In this document: positions 8,483 to 35,862 of the stretch, one piece after another
How positions within the stretch are numbered: the stretch's first letter is position 1
How the letters are laid out: the number at the start of each line of letters is the position of its first letter
Assembly: GCF_003057965.1 (NCBI RefSeq)
Contig: NZ_CP020921.1
Coordinates: forward strand, 670,916 to 734,915
Direction: 5' to 3'
Origin: Thermodesulfobium acidiphilum
Lineage (GTDB): Bacteria; Thermodesulfobiota; Thermodesulfobiia; Thermodesulfobiales; Thermodesulfobiaceae
Length of the DNA: 64,000 bases
Position numbers and translations under genes: made by a program
The notes under the pieces: model-generated
The model's database searches: none
What the model was told of the DNA's origin: nothing
What the model saw: the letters and a program-made list of their open reading frames with translations, nothing else

Positions 8483-9925
8483 TTACTTTTTAATTTTCAA
8501 ATTGTTGAATTTTTCTAAAAGAAATGCTTTTGCATCTTCTTCATCTTTAACTTCCCCTCTGATCATAGCACCTTTTAGCATTTTTAATGCTATGCCAACT
8601 GTAGGTCCTGGTTCTAAATTTAATAGTTTCATTATCTCTTTTCCATTTAATGGCAACTTCTTGGGGGGTTCGTAGTAAAGAGAAGTTTTAATTATTTTTT
8701 TGTATAACTTATATCTTTCTAATATATAGGAAAGAGTAATCTTCTGCCCCCTGCTAGATAGCCTGTCTGCCAGGCTAAGAAGAGTAATATTAACGGTATA
8801 AGGATATGTTTTGCTTAAAAATTTTAATATGTGAGCTTCAGGATTTTCTGATGGTATAAATATTGGTTGCATATGATTCTTAACTAAATGTTTTAGTTCT
8901 TTTATCTCTGACTTTGACAGTCTCATTCTTCTAGCAATTTTTTCAACTATTATAGAGCCTTCCTGATCATGATTAAGAAAGCTTGTTTTGTTGGAATCTA
9001 GTTTCATAGTTATCGGTTTTCCAACGTCGTGTAAGAGAGTGGCTAGTTTTAATAATTGTATATTTTTTCTGCCACCACCTATTATGTGATTTAGGTAATA
9101 AGTAAGTTTTTCTAATATATCTTGCCAGATAGGAGATTTGAAGAGCAAAATTCTCTCTAGGCATCTAAGTGCTTCAAAAGAATGTTCAAGACCATTTAAA
9201 TGATGAAATCTTTGAGGTTCTGCACTTACTTTTTCAAGTAGTGTCAACTCTGGAAATATTATTTTCAATATTCCCGCCTTCCAAAGATTATAAAGAACGT
9301 CAGCAGAATTTTTTAGTGCTAAAATTTTGAAAATTTCATCTCGAACCCTTTCTGAGGGAACTTGAGATATTAAAGGAGCTTGTTCCATAATCAAAATGCT
9401 TGTTCTTTCATCTAATTGGAAGTTCATTTCAGCAACAAATCTATAAGCTCTAATAAGCCTTACAGGGTCTTTGATAAAAGCAAGGTCGCTAGTTAATCTA
9501 ATTCTTTTGTTAATTAAGTCTCTAATTCCTTCGGCAGAGTCGAAAAGAGCTCCATCGCTCATTCTTATAGCCATTGAGTTTATTGTAAAATCTCTTTCTA
9601 ATAAATCTTCTTGTAGATTGCTACCCTTTGGTTCTGATATATCTATCTGCAGACCTTCTTTTATTATACGTATTGTTTTTGAGGAATAGTTAGCACCCTT
9701 AAGAAAGAAAAACTTTCCTCCTAAATTATTAACTAGTAATTTGGCTATGTCTGATACAGATCCCTCAGAAACGAGGAAATCGTAATCGTTTATTTCCTTG
9801 CCAATTAATAAATCTCTAACTGCTCCTCCAACTAAAAAAACATTCTCATAAGCATTGTTGTCTAACAGGAAATGAATTTTATTAAGCAAATTATTTTTTT
9901 CTATTAATTCTTTTAAAGAAGTTAT
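8483..9925 (-). CDS. cca: tRNA nucleotidyltransferase / poly(A) polymerase family protein with HD domain
   Basis: Class II nucleotidyltransferase, predicted to add or repair the CCA end of tRNA. The N-terminal part has FLVGGAVRDLL, then DYDFLVSE (the metal-binding DxD-like pair), DFTINSMA and the RLIRAYRF motif; the C-terminal half has an HD phosphohydrolase domain (ATLLHDVGKP). The start is unusual. A promoter (TTGATT, 17 bases, TATAAT, 10004 to 9976) places the transcript start near 9969, and the only strong ribosome site, GGGGGAG at 9937-9931, is followed after 5 bases by ATA at 9925. A TTG at 9964 lies before that site. I therefore annotate ATA (480 residues), with the TTG start (493 residues) as alternative. 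All tRNAs in this window already encode CCA, so the role may be repair. Confidence 0.85.
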   Translation of the reverse strand: MTSLKELIEKNNLLNKIHFLLDNNAYENVFLVGGAVRDLLIGKEINDYDFLVSEGSVSDIAKLLVNNLGGKFFFLKGANYSSKTIRIIKEGLQIDISEPKGSNLQEDLLERDFTINSMAIRMSDGALFDSAEGIRDLINKRIRLTSDLAFIKDPVRLIRAYRFVAEMNFQLDERTSILIMEQAPLISQVPSERVRDEIFKILALKNSADVLYNLWKAGILKIIFPELTLLEKVSAEPQRFHHLNGLEHSFEALRCLERILLFKSPIWQDILEKLTYYLNHIIGGGRKNIQLLKLATLLHDVGKPITMKLDSNKTSFLNHDQEGSIIVEKIARRMRLSKSEIKELKHLVKNHMQPIFIPSENPEAHILKFLSKTYPYTVNITLLSLADRLSSRGQKITLSYILERYKLYKKIIKTSLYYEPPKKLPLNGKEIMKLLNLEPGPTVGIALKMLKGAMIRGEVKDEEDAKAFLLEKFNNLKIKK

Positions 9926-9975
9926 TTTGTCTCCCCCTCTTTTGTTTATATTTACAATATTCAAAAAACATCTAA

Positions 9976-10004
9976 ATTATAAAACATAATTTTGAAAAAA
10001 TCAA
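9976..10004 (-). promoter_or_regulatory. Promoter of the cca gene
   Basis: On the minus strand TTGATT (10004-9999), a 17-base spacer and TATAAT (9981-9976) form a good housekeeping promoter that overlaps the stop codon of the upstream XRE gene. The predicted transcript start, near 9969, gives a leader of about 44 bases that contains the GGGGGAG site. Confidence 0.6.
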
Positions 10005-10369
10005 TTTTTTGATTTGTCTGCTTTTTCCCAATTTTCGAGTTTGAATTTTACAAAATCCAAGATACTTTTTTGCTCTTCTTTTGATAGAACCTTTAAAGCG
10101 TAGAACATCATGCTAAATTCGGGCTCTTCGGAAAACTTTTTTGTTAAATCATCTGTGATATAGCCTGCTCTTAAATATAAGTCTAATTCGTCTATTCCAA
10201 GAACTGATGCTATATTTTTCAAAACTTTTGGAGATGGAGGAGGCATTTTTCCTGATTCAAGCTTGTTTACATAACCAGGATCTATCCCTGATAACAAAGC
10301 AAGCCTTCTCTGATTAATGCCTTTTTGAATTCTTGCTTCCTTTAAAAATTTACCGAATTCATTTGTCAA
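10001..10369 (-). CDS. XRE-family helix-turn-helix transcriptional regulator
   Basis: DNA-binding protein of 122 residues. Residues 5-65 form a Cro/C1-type helix-turn-helix (LKEARIQKGINQRRLALLSG, then YVNKLESGKMPPPSP). The C-terminal half, to residue 122, is helical with KVLSKEEQKSILDFVKFKL, which may mediate dimer formation. TTG is the start, 7 bases after GAGGTG. It follows the CoA-disulfide reductase-like gene by 19 bases and is probably in the same transcript, so it may regulate that redox gene; this is inference. The target is unknown. Confidence 0.85.
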   Translation of the reverse strand: MTNEFGKFLKEARIQKGINQRRLALLSGIDPGYVNKLESGKMPPPSPKVLKNIASVLGIDELDLYLRAGYITDDLTKKFSEEPEFSMMFYALKVLSKEEQKSILDFVKFKLENWEKADKSKN

Positions 10370-35331: not shown

Positions 35332-35862
35332 ATTATAAAATTTCTTGTTAAAAAAAGAACAAAACTTTTGTATTTGCTTTTTGTTTTAATAATTTTTTTG
35401 TCACGTCCAACAATGGTATCTTTGATCGCAGGAGCTATTTTTTCAATTTTAGGTTTGTTACTAAGAGCATGGGCTGCTGCAACTATAAATAAAGTAAAAG
35501 TTCTTTCTACTGATGGTCCATATTCTTTAGTAAGAAATCCACTTTATCTGGGGAGTTTTCTGGCTGGTTCTGGGGTAATGATATCAAGTGGAAGTTTTTT
35601 CTTGCTTGTTATATTTGTTATTGGTTTTTTGTTTATACATTTTCACAAAATGAAAGAAGAGGAAGAAGAACTTTATAGAGAACATAAAGAAAAATTTCTT
35701 GAATATAAAGAAAGAGTTCCTGCTTTTTTACCAAACTTTTTAAATTTTAAAATGGCTCCTATTTCTTTCAAAAGATATATGGCAAATAACGAATACAGAG
35801 CACCTTTAACAGTGATAGCTATATATATATTTTTAATTTTGAAATATATATTTTTTAATTAG
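35332..35862 (+). CDS. ICMT/PEMT-family membrane methyltransferase
   Basis: Small integral-membrane methyltransferase of the isoprenylcysteine/phospholipid type, about 176 residues. Hydrophobic helices occur near the N-terminus, near residue 35 and near residue 85, with a last one at the C-terminus. The signature GPYSLVRNPLYLGSFLAGSG and the EEEELYREHKEKFLEYKERVP segment match the family. The start is unusual: AAAGGA at 35317-35322 is followed by a stop (TAG) and then ATT at 35332. The next in-frame ATG/GTG/TTG is TTG at 35368, inside the first hydrophobic helix. Starting at ATT restores a basic stretch (KFLVKKRTK) before the helix. The substrate is unknown. Confidence 0.75.
   Translation: MIKFLVKKRTKLLYLLFVLIIFLSRPTMVSLIAGAIFSILGLLLRAWAAATINKVKVLSTDGPYSLVRNPLYLGSFLAGSGVMISSGSFFLLVIFVIGFLFIHFHKMKEEEEELYREHKEKFLEYKERVPAFLPNFLNFKMAPISFKRYMANNEYRAPLTVIAIYIFLILKYIFFN

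Follow-up and report, generated by a model that had tools for sequence, protein, structure and literature searches.

Structure of the cca locus

Bacterial gene finders assume that translation begins at ATG, GTG or TTG, and the cca locus raises the question of whether its product, a class II tRNA nucleotidyltransferase, is translated from an AUA codon. The locus lies in a window of 64,000 nucleotides (the whole stretch of DNA analysed) within a closed genome of 1.77 Mb. Three relatives of the same genus, probably Thermodesulfobium, were compared with it; all other genomes are distant. The features of the locus are listed below by coordinate.

8483..9925, minus strand: coding sequence of a class II tRNA nucleotidyltransferase, 480 aa from ATA (Pfam PF01743, PF12627, PF01966)
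9887..9889, minus strand: TTG, codon 13 counted from ATA, the sole canonical rival start
9923..9925, minus strand: ATA, predicted cca start codon, present in 4/4 genomes
9937-9931, minus strand: Shine-Dalgarno (SD) core GGGGGAG, with ATA 5 nt further on
9931..9943, minus strand: extended SD block AAAAGAGGGGGAG, identical in 4/4 genomes of the genus
9962..9964, minus strand: TTG at which the mechanical ORF begins; not accepted as the cca start
9976..10004, minus strand: predicted promoter-like site TTGATT-17-TATAAT (10/12 matches in a consensus scan)
10001..10369, minus strand: upstream gene for a small HTH_3 (Cro/C1-type) DNA-binding protein (Pfam HTH_3, E=1.9e-13)

The first-pass annotation, which was made from the letters of the window, had placed a promoter at 10004-9976, and the scan finds the promoter-like site there. 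Its -35 box, 17-nt spacer and -10 box are also legible in all three relatives, and a transcript start near 9969 would be expected from it. The stop of the HTH_3 gene overlaps the -35 box, and an HTH_3 coding sequence precedes cca in the relatives as well. The ATA that had been noted at a suitable distance behind GGGGGAG is in frame, being codon 14 of the mechanical ORF (TTG 9964 to 8483). Since ATA is one base from ATG, it could in principle be a miscalled or mutated ATG, the product of a sequencing error or of gene decay. This reading has next to no probability and is refuted by the agreement of four separate genomes on ATA and by the reading frame of 480 codons, which is intact and gap-free in all of them.

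The start codon of cca

The block AAAAGAGGGGGAG, a spacer A[AC]AA[AG] and the sequence ATA ACT TCT TTA AA are retained in all four genomes of the genus, an outcome of the comparison of start regions in close relatives that had been proposed as a check. The region between the -10 box and the SD block differs among the same genomes by indels and substitutions, and a conserved SD, spacer and ATA beside such variable sequence are unlikely to be a chance arrangement. The conservation of one ATA is weak evidence when taken alone, because 11 of the 30 ATA codons of cca are ATA in all four genomes. Based on the duplex energy with the anti-SD tail, which was taken as standard in the calculation, the pairing before ATA amounts to -11.5 to -11.7 kcal/mol; the corresponding values are -1.6 kcal/mol at TTG 9964 and -0.1 to -1.3 kcal/mol at TTG 9889 in three relatives. 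Also, ATA is the only codon within the usual SD spacing range that is one position away from AUG.

Concerning the canonical alternatives, the window sequence contains no in-frame ATG, GTG or TTG between TTG 9964 and TTG 9889, in agreement with the first-pass annotation. TTG 9964, which had already been judged an unlikely start, is private to the genome of the window and was rejected on this ground and on its low SD energy. In the other three genomes no start codon of any kind aligns with it, and the frame runs to a stop with no ATG, GTG or TTG upstream of ATA. An ATG of relatives at this place, which the first-pass annotation had named as a refutation of the ATA start, is not seen.

The in-frame TTG 9889 deserves more attention, as it is kept in all four genomes while the codon next to it varies, UUG starts are common in the genus (61/308 and 49/240 picks in the two samples described below), and the catalytic motif sits downstream of it. 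If translation began there, the SD-like block and the ATA would belong to a leader that is conserved but not translated, or to a standby site. We consider this very unlikely: TTG 9889 has no SD of its own, the strong SD before ATA would be left with no role, and most homologues have a longer N-terminus than this start would give. From ATA to the GG of the nucleotidyltransferase motif there are 32 codons, and from TTG 9889 there are 20; in homologues from other phyla this distance is usually about 27-34 codons (central range), which supports the ATA start.

The pattern of silent change also favours ATA. Third positions vary in 2/12 of the codons counted from ATA and in 303/480 gene-wide (P=0.0014), and silent change is likewise suppressed in codons 2-12 of 198 ordinary genes that start with ATG in this genus (0.20 vs 0.29); codons 1-12 of cca thus behave as codons near ordinary starts of the genus do. 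The strong evidence for the predicted ATA start is its SD together with the lack of alternative starts. It is highly probable that cca is translated from AUA (9925), as one of a set of genes of the genus that would use AUA, AUU, AUC or CUG behind strong SDs; actual initiation at this codon is what we infer from the aligned sequences.

Predicted near-cognate starts in the genus

Orthologous pairs from genomes G000 and G001 were examined in two samples (about 400 and 390 kb; 308 + 240 = 548 pairs), which total ~790 kb of G000, roughly 45% of the 1.77-Mb genome. Sample 2 was scanned by the rule of sample 1. In sample 1, a strong SD core is conserved in 107 pairs, and in 85 of the 107 a canonical start at the expected spacing is conserved as well. 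Across both samples, a strong conserved SD is followed by ATA, ATT, ATC or CTG, with no usable canonical start, in approximately 11 of the 548 pairs (nine of them strong cases), a rate of 2% that stands without a matched background from an SD-using genus. The G050/G062 pair was uninformative as a background control because its infC starts with ATG and most of its genes are without SDs; it looks cyanobacterial. Internal Gly-Gly motifs, longer spacings and genes with an ATG beyond the scanned range were removed by hand, and a PAS protein (s2A590), rsmI (A88/A89) and a weak-SD membrane protein (A2) were discarded as false positives of the scan. The candidate starts outside cca are the following.

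infC (IF3), G000:C1 near 274042 and L112-L115: ATA after GGAGGTGA in 4/4 genomes
MscS-type channel, sample 1: ATA, 8 nt past GGAGG, 4/4 genomes
PRK07757 N-acetyltransferase, sample 1: ATT, 4/4 genomes
CodY orthologue (NF003170, above cut-off), L139:11682-12500, minus strand: CTG behind GGGGGTGA, 4/4 genomes
Protein of unknown family, sample 1: ATT; in two genomes ATC, at a site that is less clear
SMC, L232:6576-9752, minus strand: ATT, two genomes checked
LL-diaminopimelate aminotransferase (DapL), L235:2196-3359, minus strand: ATC, two genomes checked
YebC, L237:7994-8752, minus strand: ATT, 4/4 genomes
RNase PH, L233:12633-13355, plus strand: ATT, two genomes checked
Prenyl synthase overlapping the end of smc, sample 2: CTG, a weaker case, two genomes checked

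The predicted near-cognate starts coincide with the first positions of the family models or lie no more than about two residues away (residue to profile position: YebC 2 to 2, SMC 2 to 1, aminotransferase 2 to 3, CodY 3 to 3, RNase PH 6 to 4). An SD followed by a near-cognate codon recurs in genes whose N-terminus is set by the family model, for example in YebC, which argues further against TTG 9889 in cca. In 154 genes that do not conserve a canonical start together with an SD, AUA, AUU, AUC or CUG (10% of codon usage) stand at the right SD distance 11 times; other codons (84% of usage) stand there 16 times, several of these being neighbours in the same genes. The enrichment of near-cognate codons behind such orphan SDs has a binomial P of 7e-5, calculated from counts that are not fully independent. 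As the same arrangement is seen in unrelated genes, the rare start would be a trait of the organism and not of cca, and the genus-wide set is a more interesting point than cca alone. Given the start codons that gene finders assume, the N-termini of tens of genes here, including those of IF3, SMC and YebC, are probably wrong.

A possible further near-cognate start is present in a PEMT-family methyltransferase (window 35332-35859, plus strand, and L137:6247-6774), in which the first in-frame codons to follow a stop, ATT ATA, have a weaker SD (AAAGG) ahead of them in two genomes.

Distribution outside the genus

The N-terminus of YebC is almost invariant (M[AS]GHSKW), so that its start codon can be surveyed by pattern. 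The version starting with ATG, GTG or TTG was found in 288 of 386 surveyed genomes and in 0/4 of the genus; the ATT/ATC/ATA version was found in all four genomes of the genus, always as ATT. The survey of 386 genomes contained no genuine ATT/ATC/ATA version of YebC outside the genus, the four non-genus matches being chance hits in unrelated sequence. Among the papers searched, the one that names both Thermodesulfobium and a start codon treats another subject.

The first-pass annotation had suggested, with the AUU start of E. coli pcnB in mind, that a rare start in the nucleotidyltransferase family may serve to control expression. On this reading the ATA would have evolved specifically for cca, in parallel to pcnB. 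The expression of pcnB is limited by its start codon (Binns and Masters 2002, as cited in PMC13009471), and little enzyme may suffice here because 16/16 checked tRNA genes encode CCA. We regard this reading as unlikely, since none of 77 homologous cca-type loci outside the genus has a convincing non-canonical start and the feature is common to unrelated genes of the genus. The ATA start proposed in the first-pass annotation is thus supported, and the idea of family-specific control is not.

Identity of the enzyme

The product contains the class II head and RNA-binding domains, PF01743 (PolyA_pol) and PF12627 (PolyA_pol_RNAbd), both above cut-off, and an HD domain (PF01966). Its closest solved structure is 3wfo (E=7.5e-53), with 4wbz far behind (2.9e-23); we take these to be the CC-adding and the A-adding enzyme of Aquifex, respectively. 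The product aligns to 3wfo without a long insert, and, by inspection only, it lacks the DGR-type loop between the second strand and the RRDFT-like motif. Aquifex has a pair of CC-adding and A-adding enzymes, and the structure of the former has been solved (PMC3925840); a short flexible loop is the proposed hallmark of CC-adding enzymes (PMC3925840, PMC7014341). A paralogue of 879 aa that resembles A-adding enzymes (L139:6893-9529, minus strand) aligns end to end with NF041569 (E=1.3e-146) but scores 490 bits, below the curated cut-off of 1440. The best match to 3wfo, the absence of the DGR-type loop and this paralogue make a CC-adding enzyme likelier than a CCA-adding one, and the cca product is probably a CC-adding tRNA nucleotidyltransferase. 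The A-adding-like paralogue suggests a CC-adding cca although CCA is encoded by all 16 of the tRNA genes checked.

Proposed mechanism of initiation

The extended SD would position the 30S subunit at the AUA of cca, and strong pairing with the anti-SD could keep it there long enough for a start codon with one mismatch to be accepted. The ordinary initiator tRNA-fMet (anticodon CAU) would pair with two of the three bases of AUA, and IF3 would discriminate against starts of this type, giving a low, IF3-responsive yield. The initiator tRNA is normal (CAU, C1-A72 mismatch, GGG/CCC anticodon stem), and no odd second initiator tRNA was seen in the sampled regions. The cca leader shows no structured RNA (fold z-scores of -0.8 and +0.6, no Rfam match). 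Selection by IF3 against codons of this kind is known from both E. coli and Streptomyces (PMC5472188). In S. aureus, AUA and AUU starts with extended SDs give ~10% of the AUG yield in poor medium, and the non-canonical start of ccpN gives up to 30% in rich medium (PMC13009471). By analogy, we infer a low yield and IF3 sensitivity for cca, and limited expression is plausible. With CCA encoded by the 16/16 tRNA genes, low output would be tolerable, as the enzyme would repair tRNA ends and not build them.

The gene for IF3 also appears to start at AUA here, so IF3 could set its own level as well as that of the other near-cognate genes. The position of E. coli R116 is D in the IF3 of all four genomes of the genus (L112-L115), and basic in 12 other IF3 sequences (E. 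coli, Geobacillus, Thermus and two further genera). We suggest tentatively, with a confidence slightly short of even, that the genus has relaxed start discrimination, perhaps through its diverged IF3, with ~2% of its genes, core genes included, starting at AUA, AUU, AUC or CUG behind strong SDs; automatic annotation would then set such starts wrongly or overlook them.

Comparison with known systems

The closest parallel is found in S. aureus, where infC, ccpN and citZ have, like cca, AUA behind an extended SD, and the AUA of ccpN is conserved among relatives as that of cca is within the genus (PMC13009471). The four non-canonical sites of S. aureus were identified by initiation profiling (PMC13009471), whereas the ~11 candidates presented here come from sequence only, in roughly 45% of the genome, and include core genes. 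E. coli pcnB shares with cca the nucleotidyltransferase superfamily and a near-cognate AUN start, and its AUU was the second chromosomal AUU start to be published (Binns and Masters 2002, cited in PMC13009471). It differs in encoding a poly(A) polymerase and in starting with AUU; the enzyme studied here is probably CC-adding, starts with a predicted AUA and shares this feature with unrelated genes. Streptomyces sigR has a GTC start and is kept low under IF3 control, which cca may resemble; sigR differs in its codon and in being a single regulatory gene, for which the balance with an anti-sigma factor is important (PMC5472188). If the near-cognate starts are true, the genus would offer a natural setting in which to study how strong SD pairing and IF3 govern the accuracy of start-codon choice, and to ask whether AUN starts serve regulation or are drift that is tolerated.

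The classic case of a non-canonical start is infC, which in E. coli starts with AUU and is subject to autoregulation by IF3. The infC of the genus differs in its predicted AUA, found in 4/4 genomes, and in encoding the diverged IF3 with D at R116. In G000, G002 and G003, and not in G001, the SD of infC also precedes an out-of-frame mini-ORF, ATG TTA TAA, that overlaps the start. The infC of an unrelated genus, that of G013 (L164-L166), has an apparent ATT start after AAAGGAGGGTATC.
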